The position numbers and the translations under genes were made by a program. A stretch of 38,450 bases of DNA from the NCBI GenBank assembly GCA_014801235.1, contig JAAVEM010000025.1, forward strand, positions 42,681 through 81,130. The letters run 5' to 3'. The DNA comes from Bacteroides sp. Its GTDB lineage: Bacteria; Bacteroidota; Bacteroidia; Bacteroidales; Muribaculaceae. The notes below the pieces were generated by a model. That model had not been told where the DNA came from. It ran no database searches and saw only the letters and a list, made by a program, of their open reading frames with translations. Positions 1 to 35,950 of the stretch are shown one piece after another (position 1 is the stretch's first letter; every line of letters starts with the position of its first letter).

Positions 1-1274
1 GCCATGTAGTAGCCGGTGCGTGTGGTTCCCGCCTCGGTCGAAGTGCCGTAGGGGGTCAGGTCGACCCCGGCAACCTCCTGTCCGTCGACAGTGGTATAGT
101 GGATGTCCATGATCTTGCCCTTCCACTCGGCTCCGTCATAGAGGATGTTGGCATAGAAACGAACGTCACGGCCCTCATAAGGATTATTGCTGTTATAGCC
201 CGACCCTGACTCGTTGATGCGCTTGCCGTTAGCCATGCGGTATTCGTCGACATGGTTCTGGGTGGGGTTATAGGCTGCGGTTGTTCCGCCTGCCGATGGC
301 GGAGCTGCGTCGCGGTCGAGTTTATGACCGTTGCCCATGTTGATGTCGCCGTCGTCGGAATGCTGCACTTCCCAGATGGATTCTTTGGAATTCTTTGTGA
401 GGAAGATATTGCGGTAAGCAGCCACGATTGACTCTTGGTCGCCTTCGGGAATCTGAACGAGGTCATAGACGTTGAGCGCCATCACCCTGTCATAGTTCAC
501 TTCGGCGGAGTCAAGCATTTCAGCCGAGCGGTCGTCGGGGAAGCCGAGATAAGGGAGCTCCTGATTCTGGAAATGCTCGCCCGACGCCCATTGGAACGTC
601 TTGGCTTTGAGCATGAGGGCGGCGCCGCGGGTGGCGCGTCCCGCATTGTCGTCGGTGTTCACCGCCGGCAGCAGATATGACGCTTTTTCAGCCTCCTCGG
701 TTATAAACTTCACCGTCTCCTCATAGGAGGCGCGGGGAAATTTTTCAGGATTTTTCAACGGGTCAAACACATGGTCGATCAAAAGCGGTCCGCCGAAACG
801 TCGGAGCAGCTTATAGTAATAATAAGCGCGGAAGAAATGAGCCTCGCCCACCACTCGGTCACGTATCTGAGGCACGAGACTGTGCTCGTTTTCAAGGAGC
901 GTGTTGATCGACTGTATTTGAGAATAAGCGCTCAGCCATGATGTGCGTCCGCGGGTGGTTATCATCGACTGCTGGCTCTTCAGGATATTGCCATAGTCGG
1001 TCTGATACCAGCTGCGACGTCCCACGGTCAACTGGTCGCCATACCACGGCTCATACTCATTACCGAGACCCGCCATGATAGTGGTCACGAGAGTCGAAAA
1101 ACCGTTGTCCATCGAGCTGTACCACGGATTCACATATTCGTTAAGCAGAATCTCGTTTTCCCATATTATATCCTGCGAAAGCTTATTGTTAGGAGCGTCA
1201 CGGAAGATGTCGTCGCATGATGACAGCCCCGTCGACAGGATAAGGGAAGGAATTATATATTTTAAAAATTTCAT
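1..1274 (-). CDS. SusD/RagB family nutrient-binding lipoprotein (3' end beyond window start)
   Basis: Reverse-strand frame from ATG at 1274 reads MKFLKYIIPSLILSTGLSSCDDIFRDAPNNKL...AHFFRAYYYYKLLRRFGGPLLIDHVFD..., with lipobox and typical SusD motifs; open to position 1; directly downstream of a SusC gene. Absent from the ORF track because there is no stop in the window. Confidence 0.9.
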   Translation of the reverse strand, partial: MKFLKYIIPSLILSTGLSSCDDIFRDAPNNKLSQDIIWENEILLNEYVNPWYSSMDNGFSTLVTTIMAGLGNEYEPWYGDQLTVGRRSWYQTDYGNILKSQQSMITTRGRTSWLSAYSQIQSINTLLENEHSLVPQIRDRVVGEAHFFRAYYYYKLLRRFGGPLLIDHVFDPLKNPEKFPRASYEETVKFITEEAEKASYLLPAVNTDDNAGRATRGAALMLKAKTFQWASGEHFQNQELPYLGFPDDRSAEMLDSAEVNYDRVMALNVYDLVQIPEGDQESIVAAYRNIFLTKNSKESIWEVQHSDDGDINMGNGHKLDRDAAPPSAGGTTAAYNPTQNHVDEYRMANGKRINESGSGYNSNNPYEGRDVRFYANILYDGAEWKGKIMDIHYTTVDGQEVAGVDLTPYGTSTEAGTTRTGYYM

Positions 1275-17017: not shown

Positions 17018-18598
17018 TTATTCAAATGAGCCCATTTTCAAGAAGTTCACCTCTTCCTGAGTGAGGTAACGCCATCTGCCGCGGGGCAGATTCTTCTTGG
17101 TGAGACCTGCAAAATAAACTCGGTCAAGTTTTGTCACGTGATATCCGAGGCTTTCGAATATGCGTCTCACGATGCGGTTGCGTCCCGAGTGGATCTCTAT
17201 ACCCGCCTGATTGCGGTCGGTCTCGGTGGCATAGCTGATAGCGTCGGCATGGATCGGTCCGTCCTCAAGCTCGATGCCGTCGGCGATAGCCTGCATGTCA
17301 TCTTCTGAAATATCCTTGTCGGTCCACACGTGATAGATCTTCTTCTTTACATACTTAGGATGAGTGAGCTTTGAAGCCAAATCACCGTCATTTGTAAGAA
17401 GGAGCACACCGGTGGTGTTGCGGTCAAGACGCCCAACGGGATAAATACGTTCGTTGCATGCGCCCTTCACGAGATCCATCACCGTGGTTCTGCCGTTGGG
17501 ATCGTCGCTTGTAGTGACACAATCCTTCGGCTTGTTCAGAAGTATGTAGCACTTGCTCTCCAGCGTAACTACTTTTTCATCATATTCCACTACATCGCTG
17601 TGGGAAATCTTAGTTCCGAGTTCGGTGACAACCTCGCCGTTAACCTTCACAAGACCCTGAGAGATAAACTCGTCAGCCTCGCGACGCGAGCAAATTCCGG
17701 CATTAGCCATGAACTTGTTCAAGCGAATCTGCTCATCGGGATCGGGTATAGGCATTTCATACTCGATGCGCTTGGGACGCGGCACGAAGCTCTTGCCCGG
17801 GCGCTGGAATCCCTGCTGGCGATTGCCCTGCTGACGGTTGTTATTATAAGATCTCGGTCCGCCCTGCTGACGATTGTTGTTATAACCGCCCTGCTGGTTG
17901 TTGTAGCCGTAACCGCCCTGTTGACGGTTGTTGTTGTAACCGCCCTGCTGACGGTTGTTGTTGTAGCCGCCCTGCTGACGGTTGTTGCTGTAGCCGCCCT
18001 GCTGACGGTTGTTGTTGTAGCCGCCCTGCTGACGGTTGTTGTTATAGCCGCCCTGCTGACGGTTGTTGTTATAGCCGCCTTGCTGACGGTTGTTATTATA
18101 GCCGCCTTGCTGACGGTTATTGTTGTAGCCGCCCTGACGGTTATTATTGTAGCGATTATATCCGCCCTGCTGACGGTTGTTGTTGTAACCGCCCTGCTGG
18201 CTATAGCCTGTAGTCGGGGCGCTTTCAGTTGAAGCCGATTCAGCTGCCGAGCTCTCAACGCCATCTACCGGCTGAGATTGCTGCTGATACTGGCGAGGCT
18301 GATAGCCGCCCTGCTGGTTATTGTAACGGTTGTAACCGCCCTGCTGACGGTTGTTGTTATATCCTCCCTGATTGTTGTAGCCTGATCTTCCGTTATTATA
18401 TCCCCGCTGAACATACGGACGGGGCTGATAGGGACGGTCGTAGCCCGAATACTCCCTGCGCGGAGCGTCAGATGAAGATTCGCCGGCGCCTGCCGTGCGA
18501 TCCGAGTTGTTAAACAAACCATCGCCCGATGAAGACGCGGCAATACGGTTCTCCCCTATGCGGGGACGTCTTGGTTTCTTTTCTTCGCTGCTGTCCAT
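17018..18598 (-). CDS. rRNA pseudouridine synthase (RluB/RsuA family) with long Q/N/G/Y/R-rich N-terminal repeat domain
   Basis: C-terminal S4 domain plus RsuA/RluB catalytic motif ([33 protein letters not shown]); N-terminal repeats GGYNNNRQQ. Confidence 0.92.
17905..18135 (-). repeat. In-frame 27-bp tandem repeat encoding GGYNNNRQQ
   Basis: About eight consecutive near-identical units CTGCTGACGGTTGTTGTTGTAGCCGCC (plus strand); further degenerate units extend to about 17810 and 18440. Confidence 0.9.
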
Positions 18599-29114: not shown

Positions 29115-29212
29115 TCAACGTCGGAGACGTTGAAATATGCGAAACCCCATGTTGGCGCGCCAACATGGGGCAAGGGAATGCATCACCTATTCATCCTCGG
29201 AGAGGATGAATA
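29115..29212 (+). repeat. Composite hairpin element, copy A: GGA hairpin (29115-29133), palindrome (29145-29170), GGA hairpin (29188-29212)
   Basis: TCAACGTC-GGA-GACGTTGA; GAAA + CCCCATGTTGGCGCGCCAACATGGGG (26-nt perfect palindrome); TATTCATCCTC-GGA-GAGGATGAATA. Confidence 0.85.
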
Positions 29213-29273
29213 AAAACACCACATAAGAGATAGACACACCCATGCAAACCAAGCCATAGGGTATAAAAAAAGC

Positions 29274-29305
29274 GGACCATGCGCTCCTCCCGGAGAGCAT
29301 GGTCC
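29274..29305 (-). terminator. Terminator of the right-hand SusC-SusD-lipoprotein operon
   Basis: GGACCATGC...GCATGGTCC followed on the minus strand by GCTTTTTTTATAC. Confidence 0.8.
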
Positions 29306-29341
29306 TTAAAAAAAGTATTTAAAAGTTGTGTATGTGCTGAT

Positions 29342-30193
29342 TTATTGCTGATTCGGAACGAAATATTCGTAACCGTATCCAAGGCTACCTGCCGATACCG
29401 ACATATTCAGATACAGGAAGCAAGTATAGTCATCATACATTCCGCTCTCAAAACCGTTGTCGGTCACGAATGCAGAATTGCCCTGCCAGTAGCCGATGTC
29501 CTGAGCGAACACGGTTCCATAGTTACCATAGGTGAACGGAGTGTTCTGGGGAGCTATACGGAAGAATGTGTATGTTCCGTCGGTATCCTTGCCGGTATAG
29601 TCGGGCAAAAGATTGATTTTAAGCGACCATCCTTCTCCATATACATCCTTGAATCGATAAAGAGTCTCATCAGTTGTACAGATCTGAAGCTCGGTCAGGT
29701 TTTCCTCCATGCCGGTCACATTAGCGAACTTGTCGAAATAATACGTTCCGTTCACCACGTGCTCCCATTCGAGTCCGAGGAAAGCGATTGTTGAACGATG
29801 GTGCTTATTTCCCTTAACGCCAACGGCTGAAATGGTGTAAGAACCATAAATATCGGTAAGAACGACATCGGTATATCCGTCTTCACCCGGAGCGATCTTG
29901 GTTCCTGCACTTATAACGTGCTGGATATATGCCTCTTCGCCGTCAGCTTCGATAGCCGCTTTAACATCGGCGTCCTTCTCGGCGATGTAGTAGATCTCCT
30001 CCACCTTATTGTTGGTAGCGAAACGCACCATCACGTCGTTGTCGGCATTATATTCCGACGAAGGTTCGTAAGTATAGAGCGTCACCACCGGCTTCGAGTC
30101 AGAACCCGGTTCGGTTCCCTCGTCTGCCGAGCATGAGGTCATCACCATTGCCATGCCGGCGAACAGCCCCAATAGATATTTTGATTTATTCAT
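29342..30193 (-). CDS. Hypothetical lipoprotein encoded distal to susCD
   Basis: Start MNKSKYLLGLFAGMAMVMTSCSADEG (lipobox); last gene before the terminator; no family recognised with confidence. Confidence 0.8.
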   Translation of the reverse strand: MNKSKYLLGLFAGMAMVMTSCSADEGTEPGSDSKPVVTLYTYEPSSEYNADNDVMVRFATNNKVEEIYYIAEKDADVKAAIEADGEEAYIQHVISAGTKIAPGEDGYTDVVLTDIYGSYTISAVGVKGNKHHRSTIAFLGLEWEHVVNGTYYFDKFANVTGMEENLTELQICTTDETLYRFKDVYGEGWSLKINLLPDYTGKDTDGTYTFFRIAPQNTPFTYGNYGTVFAQDIGYWQGNSAFVTDNGFESGMYDDYTCFLYLNMSVSAGSLGYGYEYFVPNQQ

Positions 30194-30227
30194 TTGTCTC
30201 GATTTAAATGATAAGTTTGACATTTAA

Positions 30228-31910
30228 TTACCATGCATACTGAGGCGAGTTGCCTTCAGGAGCTACAGGAGTGGGGTTGTTCACGATAGCCGAGTTGTAA
30301 TTGGTCTCGGTTTGAACGATACACCAGTTCATCCAGTCGGGAGGAGTGGTGGTGTTCCACTGGAAACCGTCCAGGTGGTTGGTTCCGGCATAGCTGCGGA
30401 TAACACCCTTTTCAAGACGCTTGATGTCGAAAGTAGCAAGACCTTCACCCCACAGCTCTACGCGGCGCTGCCACCACACTTCGTTCTGGAACTTTGAAGT
30501 AGAGTTGTTGTAGTAAGCCTCGTTGTGAGAGCCATATACATAGTTGGGGTCACGGAGCTTTCCGAAAGTGGTAAGGAGTGCCTGACCGCGGCTTTCGTCC
30601 TGCATTCCGGCAGCCTCAGCCTCGATAAGAATCATCTCCTCGACACGCATGATGGGAACATCCACGAGGAAGCCGATATACTGGTTGTTACGTCCGGCTG
30701 TTCCACCTGCCGCGCGGAATTTCACTGACAATCCGCCTGCCGCGCTCACGTTACCCTGCTCATAAGCTGTGTAGAACAAGCGATCGGGGAAATCAGAGTA
30801 TTCACCGAGAGCAGCGAGGGCTTCAGCCTTGGTTGCCATCTCGTCGACAGCGAAATCAACGAAGCACTTGCGGCGAGCGTCGGTAGCGGGAATAGTCTCA
30901 TAAAGGTGACGGTCGATATACTTGGGGTCACCGTAGTTAGAGGCATAACCTGCGGTCAACGGGTCGTTGCTCATCTCAAGACACATCTGGCTCGGCCAGC
31001 TTGAGTCACCGTCATTGTTAAGAATGTTGGGGTCGTCCGATTTGAAACGGGTCGCAAACATCCATGAAGAGTTGTTTGAGCTGTTGAAACCGTCGTTTTT
31101 GCTTGTGTAATAGTCATTGTCCATTGCGGCATAACCGTTCTGGGCAAGCTTTGCATACTTCTCGGCGTTAGCCCAGTCGCGCATCACCAGGTAAGCGCGA
31201 GCCTTAAGACCGTAAGCAACCGACTGGTCGGGGGTGTACTTGTCTTGGCGGGTATAACCGGCGAGATACTCTTCAGCCTTGTCAAGGTCGCTGATGATAA
31301 GATCCCACATGTCCTTGTTGGTTGCGCGGGGATTGCTCGCAAGAGTTTCAAGGGCTGTCGACTCGGTCACGATGGGCACGGTCATAGCGTCGGGATCGGC
31401 GCCATAGGTTTTCTGGGCAAACATCTGGGCGAGCTCGCTGTAATAAAGAGCGCGCATCGCATAGGCGATACCGGCGCCCACCTTCTTGTCTTCGGCAGGA
31501 TCGGGACCGGCAAGCGAAATCACGGTGTTGCAGTCCTTGATCCAGCTATAGTAGAGAGTCCAGGAAATCTGGCAGTCACGATAGCCGGGACCAAGCATTC
31601 GTCCACACTGATACCAGGTAGAGTACCATGAGCCGTCATACTCGAGCACAAGGTCCTGACCCTGCACGTCGCGCATGAGATAGAAAGTCGTGTAGCCGAA
31701 ATCCCAGGGATATTCGTTGGACGGGCTGTAAAGGAACTTACCCGTGGTTGAAGAGGTGAGACCGCCCACAAAGGTTTCATAAGAACCGGGGGCGTTGGCA
31801 GCCTGTTCGCCGGTCACGAAACTTGCCTCAGGCTGAAACTCTTCAAGACAGCCGGTGAAAAGCATCATTGATGCTGCGCCGACAAGTATTGATGAAAATA
31901 TCTTATTCAT
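30228..31910 (-). CDS. SusD/RagB family nutrient-binding lipoprotein
   Basis: MNKIFSSILVGAASMMLFTGCLEEFQPE lipobox; AYAMRALYYSELAQMFAQKTYG; directly downstream of susC. Confidence 0.93.
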   Translation of the reverse strand: MNKIFSSILVGAASMMLFTGCLEEFQPEASFVTGEQAANAPGSYETFVGGLTSSTTGKFLYSPSNEYPWDFGYTTFYLMRDVQGQDLVLEYDGSWYSTWYQCGRMLGPGYRDCQISWTLYYSWIKDCNTVISLAGPDPAEDKKVGAGIAYAMRALYYSELAQMFAQKTYGADPDAMTVPIVTESTALETLASNPRATNKDMWDLIISDLDKAEEYLAGYTRQDKYTPDQSVAYGLKARAYLVMRDWANAEKYAKLAQNGYAAMDNDYYTSKNDGFNSSNNSSWMFATRFKSDDPNILNNDGDSSWPSQMCLEMSNDPLTAGYASNYGDPKYIDRHLYETIPATDARRKCFVDFAVDEMATKAEALAALGEYSDFPDRLFYTAYEQGNVSAAGGLSVKFRAAGGTAGRNNQYIGFLVDVPIMRVEEMILIEAEAAGMQDESRGQALLTTFGKLRDPNYVYGSHNEAYYNNSTSKFQNEVWWQRRVELWGEGLATFDIKRLEKGVIRSYAGTNHLDGFQWNTTTPPDWMNWCIVQTETNYNSAIVNNPTPVAPEGNSPQYAW

Positions 31911-31930
31911 TTATTGATTCTTTTTATTGT

Positions 31931-34900
31931 TTAGAATGTCACTTGAACACCACCTGAGATGTTGCGCACGGGAGAGTAAACCGCAACGCTCTCATTTGAA
32001 GAGTAAGAGTAGCGGGGGTCAAATCCCTTGCGTGCCGACCAGAAGCAGAGGTTTTCGCCGGCTACATAGAAACGGAGCTTGGTAATGTCCTTGATCAAGC
32101 CCTTGGGAAGGGTGTAACCAACGGTGAATGACTGGAAGTTGAGGTAGCTTGCGTTGGTCAAGAAGCGGTCAGAAGCGTTGTTGCTGTTGCTGTTACCCTG
32201 ACCATACTGCCAGCGGGGAATGTCAGAGTTAGTGTTGTTGGGGCTCCATGACTTGAGCACATCCTTGTGGATAGCGTGACCGGCGTCATTGCTACCTGAA
32301 GGAACAATCATGAGCTGAGCGTACTGGTTGTCATAAACCTTACCGCCTATCTGATAGTCGAATGTTGCAGTCAAGTCGAAGTCCTTAACGCGAACATAGG
32401 TGCTGAAACCGCCATACACTTTGGGAAGGATAGAACCAACGGTATAACGAGATGCTTCACCGGGAACTGTGGTCACATAATCCTTTGACTTGATCTTTCC
32501 GGGCTGGGCGATATCCATCGCGCCGTCTTCGCCGATGAGGTTAGGATCGTAGTAGTAGAGAGCTTCACCCTGCTCGTTGACGCCTGCGTAGGCATAGGTC
32601 ATGTAGTTGTAGAGGGGCTTGCCTTCCTGATACCACATGCTCGATTCAAAGAAACCGCCGCGTTCGCCGGTCTTAGCCTTGGGAAGGCTCACGATCTTGG
32701 TGGCGTTGTGAGAGATGTTTCCGCTGAGCTGCCATTCGAAGTCGCGGGTGCGGATCACGTGTCCTGCAAGAGAAAGCTCGACACCCTGGTTGCGGATAGT
32801 ACCCATGTTGCCATAGTAACCGCGGGCACCTGCCGATTCAGCCACTGACATCCAGAAGAGAAGGTTGCTCACGCGCTTAACATAGAAGTCGATGTTACCG
32901 GTGAGACGGTTGCCGAAGAATCCGAACTCGGCGCCGACATTGAAGTTGGTAGTAGTTTCCCAAGTGATGTCGCGGTTACCGATGTTGGAGAATGTGGGCG
33001 ACATTTCATACTCGCCTGAAGGAGTGAGCTGATAGAGGTCTGACCAGTAAAAATAGTTGGGAAGATAAGAGTGGTCGTCATATCCCACGCCGTCGTTACC
33101 CTGCTGACCGATAGAAGCCTTGAGCTTCAACATGTCGACCCAGGTATAGGGCTTCATGAATTCTTCCTTGGAGATGAGCCATGCTCCACCTACTGACCAG
33201 AAGCTACCCCAACGGTGACCCTTGGCGAAGAATGAAGAACCGTCAAGACGGTAAGAAGCCGACGCGAAATATTTTTCCTGATAGTTATACTGAGCGCTTC
33301 CGAAGTAACCCTCGACGTTATAGTTCATAGCGCGTGAAGAAGAGGTTGCCTTCTTGGCAAACGCATAGATTTCCTGAATGTCGGGAGAGAATCCGCCCTG
33401 AGCGGTAGCGGTCAGATAACGGCTGTTGGTGCGGTAATATTCGTGACCTGCCATTATATTAAGGTAGTGAGCGCCGTCAGGACCGAGGTTCTTGAAGAAC
33501 GAAAGGGTCTGCACGTTGTTAGTGCGGGTAGAGTTCTGCTGATACTTGGTCAAGTCACCGTTGATTGAAGACTTGTTGGGATTGTAGATACTTCCGTAGC
33601 TTGAATAGATAGTGTTACCCCAGCTGAGAGTGCTCTGTGCCGAGAACTTCAAGTAGTCGGTGATGTTGATATCGGCGGTAAGAGTTGCGTTCAACTGGTT
33701 GCCGATGTTCTGAGTGTTGTCATAATTGTTGGTTCCGAGCGGGTTGGCGTTTGACATGAACGGACGGGCAAGACCGTAGTTGGTAGCTGCCACACCATAG
33801 TCGTAACGCTTTTCGCCTGCATCGTTGCGAAGGATATAAGGGTTACCGTCAGCGCCAACGCCACGAAGATACACCGGATAGATGGGAGCCATCATCGAGG
33901 TGAAGTACATGATGTTGGTAGAGTTCAGCGAAGTTCCGAAGTTAGGCACTGAAGTGGTCTTTGAATGAACATAGCCGATGTTGGCGCCAAGTTTCAACCA
34001 TTTCTTAGCCTGATAGTCGGCGCGCACGCGGGCTGAAAGGCGATCGTATGAAGAGTGGTCGATAACACCCTCGTCATCAAGATAGTTGATGCTGCTATAA
34101 TAAGAAGCGCGGTCGGTTCCGCCGTTTACGCTCACGTTATATTCCTGACGGAACGAATTGTGATAAGCTTCCTTATTCCAATCGTCGGGCTGGAGCCACA
34201 GTTTCTGTCCGTTGAGCTCCACTTCGCGGCCAAGAGTGGCGTTGGGATTGATCTTACCGTCAAGACCGATAAGGTTTTCACCCTGGGGAACAGTGTAGAC
34301 ATTATAACCGAGACCCGGCCAGCTGCCCGAACCAAACATCTGAGAGTTGGCTGCGGCGTTTGCGGCTGCCGCGCTCATGCCCTGACCGTAAAGGTTGAAG
34401 TTATAGAGCATGTCATAATAAGTCTCGTAATATTTTGACGGAGACTTGATTACATCATACTGCTGGATAGCGCGAGAGTTAACACCCCACTTTGCGTCAA
34501 CGCTTACAACAGCGTCTTTAGTTTTACCGCGCTTGGTGGTAACGATGATCACACCACCTGCGCCGCGGGCACCGTAAAGAGCAGCCGAAGCAGCATCCTT
34601 AAGCACCGAGATAGTCTCGATATCACCCTGGGGAATGTTGGAAAGGCTTGCTTCATAAGGAGCGCCGTCCACAATCACAAGAGGCTCTGAGTTAGAATAA
34701 AGCGAAGAGATACCGCGAATGCTGATCTCGCCCTGAGATGCGCCGGGGGCGCCTGAGCTTGAACGCATCTGGAAGCCAGGAACCGAACCTACAAGCGCGT
34801 CAGCCACGTTGGTGGTGATGTGCTTTGAAAGTTCTTCGGCGTCAACAACTGCCGCCGATCCGGTAAACGCCTGCTTGGTAGTGGTTCCGAATGCCACCAC

Positions 34901-35209
34901 CATCACTTCGTCGAGTTTGTTGCCGGTTGTGAGTTTAATGGTCATCGGCGAGTTGGTAATGGGAACTTCCTGAGTCACCATACCCACATAGCTTACTCGC
35001 AATGCCTTTACCGACTGGGGTACTTTGATTGAAAACTTTCCATCGATGTCGGTGGCAATTCCATTGCCGCCCCCTATCGGGAGCACCGAAGCCCCCACCA
35101 GAGGTTCGCCGTCATCGGCGTTCAGCACTGTACCGGTGACCGTGCGCATCTGAGCCGATGCTGTTGCCACCATTACAAGTGCAAGTAGAAACATAATTAC
35201 TTTTTTCAT
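31931..35209 (-). CDS. SusC/RagA family TonB-linked outer membrane protein
   Basis: MKKVIMFLLALVMVATASAQ signal; CarboxypepD_reg-like domain; SEPLVIVDGAPYEASLSNIPQGDIETISVLKDAASAALYGARGAGGVIIVTTKRGK. The track start at 35242 is upstream of the likely signal peptide. Confidence 0.95.
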   Translation of the reverse strand: MKKVIMFLLALVMVATASAQMRTVTGTVLNADDGEPLVGASVLPIGGGNGIATDIDGKFSIKVPQSVKALRVSYVGMVTQEVPITNSPMTIKLTTGNKLDEVMVVAFGTTTKQAFTGSAAVVDAEELSKHITTNVADALVGSVPGFQMRSSSGAPGASQGEISIRGISSLYSNSEPLVIVDGAPYEASLSNIPQGDIETISVLKDAASAALYGARGAGGVIIVTTKRGKTKDAVVSVDAKWGVNSRAIQQYDVIKSPSKYYETYYDMLYNFNLYGQGMSAAAANAAANSQMFGSGSWPGLGYNVYTVPQGENLIGLDGKINPNATLGREVELNGQKLWLQPDDWNKEAYHNSFRQEYNVSVNGGTDRASYYSSINYLDDEGVIDHSSYDRLSARVRADYQAKKWLKLGANIGYVHSKTTSVPNFGTSLNSTNIMYFTSMMAPIYPVYLRGVGADGNPYILRNDAGEKRYDYGVAATNYGLARPFMSNANPLGTNNYDNTQNIGNQLNATLTADINITDYLKFSAQSTLSWGNTIYSSYGSIYNPNKSSINGDLTKYQQNSTRTNNVQTLSFFKNLGPDGAHYLNIMAGHEYYRTNSRYLTATAQGGFSPDIQEIYAFAKKATSSSRAMNYNVEGYFGSAQYNYQEKYFASASYRLDGSSFFAKGHRWGSFWSVGGAWLISKEEFMKPYTWVDMLKLKASIGQQGNDGVGYDDHSYLPNYFYWSDLYQLTPSGEYEMSPTFSNIGNRDITWETTTNFNVGAEFGFFGNRLTGNIDFYVKRVSNLLFWMSVAESAGARGYYGNMGTIRNQGVELSLAGHVIRTRDFEWQLSGNISHNATKIVSLPKAKTGERGGFFESSMWYQEGKPLYNYMTYAYAGVNEQGEALYYYDPNLIGEDGAMDIAQPGKIKSKDYVTTVPGEASRYTVGSILPKVYGGFSTYVRVKDFDLTATFDYQIGGKVYDNQYAQLMIVPSGSNDAGHAIHKDVLKSWSPNNTNSDIPRWQYGQGNSNSNNASDRFLTNASYLNFQSFTVGYTLPKGLIKDITKLRFYVAGENLCFWSARKGFDPRYSYSSNESVAVYSPVRNISGGVQVTF

Positions 35210-35271
35210 ACAAACTATTTTAATTAAAAAGTATAGGGTCAAAAGCTAAATTACTAATAGTCAGTAAATTA

Positions 35272-35279
35272 CCCCCCCC
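35272..35279 (-). repeat. 8-bp C/G homopolymer in the susC leader
   Basis: AATTACCCCCCCCATACG on plus strand. Confidence 0.85.
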
Positions 35280-35377
35280 ATACGCTTTTTTTTAAGTCTG
35301 TATGAAAAGAATAATTTATTATGTCAAAGAGACTTATTGGCTAAGTCACGCTACGCATCTCCATGCGTAATTGGCTG

Positions 35378-35385
35378 CAAAGTTA
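35378..35385 (-). promoter_or_regulatory. Predicted -7 box (TAACTTTG) of the right-hand susCD operon
   Basis: TAnnTTTG match about 170 nt upstream of the 35209 start, implying a long leader. Confidence 0.45.
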
Positions 35386-35672
35386 TACAAATTTCCGTAT
35401 AAAACAACAAAAATATCGAAATTCCTACAAATTTTAACACTTTTCCTGTCAATCCGATACCTCCGCGCCAACCCCGCTCACAAATCCGCACCCCCATATA
35501 ATATAGGTATACTCCCCCCACCCCACCCCCGTGACAAATCCACCCCGCGGCTGAGCGCAGCGATACCCCCGGAAAAGTCGATGCCCCGGAAAGGAACCCG
35601 CAAGGGTTCAATCGCCCCCTTTTGCCTTGCGCGGGGGGGCGGTGGATTCGCGCCGTTGGACTGCACAGATGA

Positions 35673-35771
35673 AAACATCGGAGATGTTTGAGAAAAGAAA
35701 CCCCATGTAAAAACGCACGTTTTTACATGGGGTACAGCGATGCCGGTGGATGGACAACATCGGAGATGTTG
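35673..35771 (+). repeat. Composite hairpin element, copy B1: GGA hairpin (35673-35689), palindrome (35700-35733), GGA hairpin (35755-35771)
   Basis: AAACATC-GGA-GATGTTT; GAAACCCCATGTAAAAACG-CA-CGTTTTTACATGGGG; CAACATC-GGA-GATGTTG. Confidence 0.85.
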
Positions 35772-35789
35772 AAGGCGAGAGGGTTGGTT

Positions 35790-35890
35790 CAACGTCTCCG
35801 ACGTTGTTTTTTTGTGTAGAGTTCCTTTTGCCCATGCTAATTGCACACAATTAGCATGGGGTTTCTCATCTCGGTAGCTCTCCGAGCTAC
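35790..35890 (-). repeat. Composite hairpin element, copy B2 (inverted): hairpin (35874-35890), palindrome (35831-35860), hairpin (35790-35806)
   Basis: On the minus strand: GTAGCTC-GGA-GAGCTAC; GAAACCCCATGCTAATTG-TGTG-CAATTAGCATGGG; CAACGTC-GGA-GACGTTG. Confidence 0.85.
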
Positions 35891-35926: not shown

Positions 35927-35950
35927 GCCCCGATGCTCACGCACCGGGGT
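35927..35950 (-). terminator. Terminator of the SusE/SusF-like gene pair
   Basis: Minus strand CCCCGGTGC-GTGA-GCATCGGGG (one G-U) followed by CATTTTTTTCG. Confidence 0.75.

Follow-up and report, generated by a model that had tools for sequence, protein, structure and literature searches.

The window, i.e. the whole stretch of DNA analysed here, comprises 38 450 nucleotides of a Muribaculaceae genome deposited as Bacteroides sp. (GenBank assembly GCA_014801235.1, contig JAAVEM010000025.1, positions 42681–81130; G000:C25:42681-81130 in our numbering of genomes and contigs). The genome itself, G000, consists of 1.77 Mb in 50 contigs and is 59% complete. Two intergenic spacers of the window hold three copies of a unit of ~100 bases that is made of three hairpins, hereafter the GGA unit, at 29115–29212 (plus strand), 35673–35771 (plus) and 35790–35890 (minus). 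The order of parts is a hairpin, h1, with a GGA loop closed by C-G; 7–8 nucleotides; the tetranucleotide tag GAAA; a palindrome of the form CCCCATG...CATGGG(G); 17–24 nucleotides; and a second hairpin with a GGA loop, h2. The six GGA-loop hairpins and three GAAACCCC palindromes of the original prediction, which was made from the sequence of the window, are all present and in place. That prediction also held the order and relative orientation of the parts to be the same in all copies; the internal order is indeed the same once copy 3 is read on the minus strand, but copy 3 as a whole is inverted with respect to copies 1 and 2.

Copy 1 consists of h1 TCAACGTC-GGA-GACGTTGA (29115–29133), the tag and palindrome CCCCATGTTGGCGCGCCAACATGGGG (29141–29170) and h2 TATTCATCCTC-GGA-GAGGATGAATA (29188–29212), all on the plus strand, as are the corresponding parts of copy 2, h1 AAACATC-GGA-GATGTTT (35673–35689), CCCCATGTAAAAACGCACGTTTTTACATGGGG (35697–35732) and h2 CAACATC-GGA-GATGTTG (35755–35771). 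On the minus strand, and in minus-strand reading, copy 3 has h1 GTAGCTC-GGA-GAGCTAC (35874–35890), the tag and palindrome CCCCATGCTAATTGTGTGCAATTAGCATGGG (35831–35865) and h2 CAACGTC-GGA-GACGTTG (35790–35806). All these parts are read from the sequence and recovered by folding of single-stranded DNA, and the tag and palindrome of copy 3 are additionally covered by the pattern counts across the genome. The folding yields three hairpins in each copy (z = -7.0 to -8.7), with 0 of 200 shuffles folding equally well. Copies 2 and 3 together form a head-to-head dimer, [h1-pal-h2]-18 nt-[h2'-pal'-h1'] (35673–35890), delineated by covariance-model matches and by comparison with dimers and gene brackets in other genomes; its two arms belong to different stem subtypes. 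When the plus strand is read, a T run comes after h2 of copy 3 (35790–35806), which gives this hairpin the look of an intrinsic terminator.

Copy number and arrangement

The GGA unit is far from being confined to the three copies of the window. In G000, GAAACCCCATG occurs 17 times and the combined hairpin and tag pattern TCGGAGAN{6,22}GAAACCCC occurs 27 times, with no occurrence of the control in either case (for GAAACCCCATG, the reversed pattern). The combined pattern is present in 46 of the 397 genomes of the family, although some of the single matches may be due to chance; in a wider scan of a contig database, the matches listed were scattered over all phyla and mostly of the chance kind. 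A covariance model, R1, built from 29 units (alignment A1), matches the window at 29116–29208 (plus, E 1e-17), 35673–35771 (plus, E 3e-14) and 35790–35890 (minus, E 4e-16), these matches being not independent of the model given that two of the copies were among its seeds. The census with this model gave 42 units in G000, despite the 59% completeness of this genome, and 3–71 units in eight relatives (71 in G196, 58 in G383, 54 in G024, 23 in G006, 22 in G350, 9 in G319, 7 in G036 and 3 in G007). No units were detected with R1 in G001, G009 and G012, complete genomes of the genus to which the window belongs. Several units lie at the ends of G000 contigs (C7, C12, C32, C47 and others). A scan of the region against Rfam produced a sub-threshold chance match only, and no description of a three-hairpin unit with GGA loops was found in the literature available as open full texts.

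Many of the units in G196 and G036 are head-to-head dimers of ~200–250 bp with inverted ends. The G196 dimers have a fixed spacing, and one subfamily has conserved outer arms of ~20 nucleotides (GGTGTNGCAAAACTAATCTCA). In G036, the dimer occurs both with a gene (C2) and without one (C17 and C26), and the window dimer at 35673–35890 shares its configuration with the brackets around a transposase gene in relatives. Besides dimers, units commonly occur as singles or in direct tandem arrays, as in G024. Two of the arrays, L047 (G024:C28:15000-18500) and L192 (G319:C10), have a period of ~85–135 bp and run on one strand only.

Stem covariation and lineage-specific occurrence

The stems of the GGA unit covary, as had been proposed from the window hairpins. 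In an unbiased pairing test, for which matches were picked solely on TC-GGA-GA together with GAAACCCC, the Watson–Crick share of the five outer stem pairs is 85, 82, 83, 68 and 58%, compared with 31, 36, 39, 26 and 24% when the arms are permuted. The observed pairing at each outer stem pair exceeds the maximum of 500 permutations, and up to four pair types occur per position. In alignment A1, 96.7% of the positions are paired and double changes are seen at 15 of the 21 pairs, counts that are biased toward structure, its rows having been picked for paired stems. Among the 248 stem cells of real hairpins, 224 are Watson–Crick and 24 mismatched, with not a single G.T pair. Functional RNA stems usually drift via G.U pairs, so that the zero count of G.T pairs suggests a hairpin of DNA. 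The covariation, then, points to selection on the stem structure at the level of DNA, not RNA.

The GGA unit is a lineage-specific feature, not a conserved component of the spacers that it occupies. The orthologous stretches of G004 (81% identical DNA) and G008 (89%) hold no GGA unit; the G004 spacer holds a different hairpin family, and so does that of G008, judging by repeat matches. At L167 and L175 of G004, which are orthologous to the element spacers of the window, this family includes GAATCT-GAA-AGATTC and GTAGCCGGGG, and there are nine Y1_Tnp matches in G004. For three G196 dimers, loci with the orthologous genes were recovered from other species of the genus, and GAAACCCC is in none of those outside G196.

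Bracketed transposase genes and the loop/tag combination

In relatives of G000, GGA units flank genes of an IS200-like transposase, TnpA, with matches to Y1_Tnp (PF01797) lying between units in G024 and G036. The original prediction had called for a search for an associated transposase of the REP-associated tyrosine transposase (RAYT) or IS200 type, REP standing for repetitive extragenic palindrome; an IS200-like TnpA gene is indeed bracketed in relatives, but none was found in G000. In total, 58 loci with Y1 genes were collected, nearly all with the motif Y---Q--HH. Matches to R1 (E of at most 1e-3) are present in 26 of the 58 TnpA loci, compared with 2 of 58 other loci of similar size, these two having been chosen for carrying GAAACCCCATG; when the loci that served as model seeds are left out, the counts are 21 of 53 and 2 of 58 (Fisher p 2e-6). 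This result supersedes an association obtained with a strict regular expression, which found the composite in 10 of 54 Y1 loci and in none of 20 shuffles per locus. For 27 of the 58 transposase genes, a unit lies at most 300 bp from the gene, and 16 genes have a unit on both sides. In 13 of these 16, the units form an inverted bracket, upstream unit on the plus strand and downstream unit on the minus strand with h1 outermost (the gene ends of one locus, L144, are approximate in this count).

The clearest bracket, which comes from the genus of the window, is L092 (G007), with a unit at 33–123 (plus), the gene at 173–616 and a unit at 631–714 (minus). Its unit consists of h1 GCATGGC-GGA-GCCATGC, AAACCCCAGGC gca GCCTGGGG and h2 GCCTC-GGA-GAGGC, with the mirror image beyond the gene. 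The bracketed proteins match PF01797 and the Protein Data Bank chains of the IS608 and ISDra2 TnpA, and the IS200/IS605 model NF033573 is above its cut-off for L092 and L088. Scores with the class 2 RAYT model (REP_Tyr_transpos, NF047646; motif Y..NP) are 19–31 for the bracketed TnpA, well short of the cut-off of 80. Subclass 1.2 of TnpA has been described as proteins of ~147 amino acids from Bacteroidetes with the motifs [DN]H[IV]H and Y---Q--HH and with 'no' REP (Quentin 2018; PMC6006769). By its HuH and Y---Q--HH signature, the predicted product of the bracketed gene matches this subclass of IS200-like HuH transposases.

Repeated hairpins also flank other subclass 1.2 genes in the relatives, with different loops that are mostly T-GAA-A. 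These T-GAA-A units have the same three-hairpin plan, with an [AG]TAG-CCGGG palindrome, i.e. the foot of classical REPs of the GTAG type. In a maximum-likelihood tree of 57 proteins, the distribution of C-GNA-G versus T-GNA-A loops over 33 labelled genes takes four changes, compared with a mean of 9.5 and a minimum of 6 in 300 shuffles; the loop label of L143 was corrected by hand, its counts having come from the palindromes of this locus, and with the uncorrected label the number of changes is five. Loop and tag likewise go together at the gene loci, with 10 C loops combined with GAAA, 6 T loops with RTAG, 2 exceptions and 15 uninformative cases (p 0.002). Loop and tag co-segregate with the TnpA clade. 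In classical TnpAREP, recognition depends on both the loop and the GTAG (PMC8266576). The GGA family lacks the GTAG/GTGG 5' foot and has GAAA as its tag, although the aligned rows had been selected on GAAA; L092, which was not so selected, has TAAA at a similar place. The position of GAAA suggests that it is the counterpart of the GTAG guide. The T-GAA-A units occur in G000 too (for example L004, L005, L016 and L179), with many copies in G000 and G006; the G000 family reads CAAGCCT-GAA-AGGCTTG, then the palindrome from RTAGCCGGG to CCCGG, then CACTCTGCAAAGAGTG. The original prediction anticipated neither the connection to subclass 1.2 TnpA nor the loop/tag code, and likewise did not include the head-to-head dimers or a second family built to this plan.

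Proposed mobility, competing explanations and related systems

Taken together, these observations indicate that the GGA unit is quite probably a short non-autonomous single-strand mobile element of the REP/REPIN type (REPIN, REP doublet forming hairpins) that is mobilised in trans by a subclass 1.2 TnpA. The suggestion of a self-spreading element akin to REPs, bacterial interspersed mosaic elements (BIMEs) or miniature inverted-repeat transposable elements (MITEs) had been made at the outset, and it gains from the copy number, the unbiased covariation, the lineage-specific presence and the bracketing of an IS200-like gene, to which the co-segregation of loop and tag with the TnpA clade is to be added; transposition itself would be the process behind these patterns. 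The outcome named in advance as refuting this suggestion, a genome with these three copies alone and no covariation, is not what was observed. In the proposed mechanism, TnpA would bind the folded single strand through the C-GGA-G triloops, and GAAA at the foot of the palindrome would serve as the guide tetranucleotide that positions the cut, as GTAG does in classical REPs. The enzyme would then nick and rejoin the DNA, excising and inserting single-stranded units in the manner of IS608, the single strand probably becoming accessible at replication forks. Gene-less units would use TnpA in trans, with the TnpA gene itself situated between two inverted units.

Several findings weigh against this interpretation. 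No Y1_Tnp gene was found in G000 (59% complete) or in its nearest relative G006 (65%), and the same holds for 12 of the 22 element-bearing genomes. Many subclass 1.2 genes have no GGA-type unit nearby. Neither an exact empty site nor an excision product came out of searches with joined flanks: for the G000 loci, there was no junction-spanning match in G006 and G008, the matches being mainly to a second repeat family in the flanks, and for the three G196 dimers, the orthologues in other species of the genus were too diverged for exact boundaries. Furthermore, any given copy could be of old date and no longer able to move. The missing Y1_Tnp genes may reflect gaps of metagenome-assembled genomes (MAGs) at repeats: the location of units in G000 suggests that the assembly breaks at these repeats and that transposase genes within brackets may drop out of the bin. 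Comparison of Y1_Tnp and unit presence at the genome level is uninformative, the same enzyme class being used by other families and the MAGs being incomplete.

The units might instead be binding sites used by the host, for a nucleoid protein or for gyrase as proposed for BIMEs, that are kept for chromosome structure, with their spread being secondary. Such sites have precedents in the REPs and BIMEs of Enterobacteria and would agree with the mostly intergenic location of the GGA units (18 of 26 copies touch no open reading frame (ORF) of at least 120 amino acids). This possibility is nevertheless improbable, considering the lack of units in complete genomes of the same genus and in orthologous spacers, and the freely varying stems combined with a loop that follows the transposase clade, as expected if it is the transposase that reads the loop. 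Quite improbable, too, is an RNA-level element, with transcribed hairpins functioning as terminators, mRNA stabilisers or regulatory RNA. The palindromes are stable, the stems covary, and terminator-like calls were made at 35790–35806 (plus) and 35700–35733 (minus), but G.T pairs are missing from the stems, there is no relevant Rfam match, the unit is missing from orthologous spacers of the same genes, and copies 2 and 3, in the spacer at 36 kb, sit behind the upstream gene's own terminator (35928–35949). The head-to-head dimers of G196 and G036 resemble a MITE of a DDE transposase, their arms corresponding to terminal inverted repeats; this explanation is very unlikely inasmuch as the bracketed gene is of the Y1/HuH type, units often stand singly or in direct tandem arrays, and inspection of the G196 dimers by eye showed no target-site duplication, with no exact empty site to compare. 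Chance hairpins or an artefact of MAG assembly, which the fragmented source and the copies at contig ends could bring to mind, are refuted by the control patterns in G000, by the complete lack of composites when each of 54 loci was shuffled 20 times, and by the census of multiple genomes, in which the unit recurs across many genera, including genomes with few contigs.

Among known systems, the GGA unit comes closest to REPs and REPINs with their RAYTs (TnpAREP; PMC3116915, PMC6006769, PMC8266576), with which it has in common short intergenic palindromes in tens of copies, inverted doublets such as those of REPINs (PMC3116915) that are likewise seen in the GGA dimers, a strand-asymmetric tag 5' of the hairpin foot, bracketing of a Y1/HuH gene and compensatory stem changes. 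It differs in having GAAA in place of the GTAG/GTGG foot, two additional flanking hairpins with conserved triloops and a three-hairpin unit, and its enzyme, with Y---Q--HH instead of Y..NP, is below the NCBIfam cut-off for REP_Tyr_transpos. With IS200/IS605 elements (IS608, ISDra2), it shares TnpA homology over the HuH core and subterminal hairpins with a tetranucleotide beside the foot; unlike in these elements, the gene lies between two inverted three-hairpin units, not one hairpin per end, and gene-less copies far outnumber genes. In contrast to the description of subclass 1.2 as having 'no' REP (PMC6006769), many of the inspected Muribaculaceae members adjoin repeated hairpin units. Subclass 2.6 of TnpA, also from Bacteroidetes, is associated with REP-like 'atypical secondary structures' without GTAG (PMC6006769), and is set apart by its enzyme motif, YIH[QN]NP as opposed to Y---Q--HH. 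The BrickBuilt MITEs of Porphyromonas gingivalis (PMC4596501) are miniature repeats in a Bacteroidales genome as well, and are set apart by their description as MITEs containing a minisatellite. Elsewhere in the window, positions 17018–18598 (minus) hold an ORF that, by eye, is pseudouridine-synthase-like and has a long N-terminal tract of NNRQQGGY repeats.

More tentatively, the GGA unit and its relatives may perhaps make up a distinct Bacteroidales branch of such elements, in which the code resides in the two flanking triloops together with the tag at the palindrome foot, each subclass 1.2 lineage reads its own loop/tag pair, and several mutually orthogonal sets co-exist in a genome, one substituting for another at a given spacer. 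With the single-strand mobile element proposed here, HuH enzymes of a class that has been described as lacking REPs would gain a REP-like partner, and REP/REPIN biology would extend to the abundant gut Muribaculaceae. The natural loop/tag variants, with their matching enzymes, would make the recognition code of single-strand transposases directly testable, and the unit repeats may be one reason why Muribaculaceae assemblies break up at repeats.

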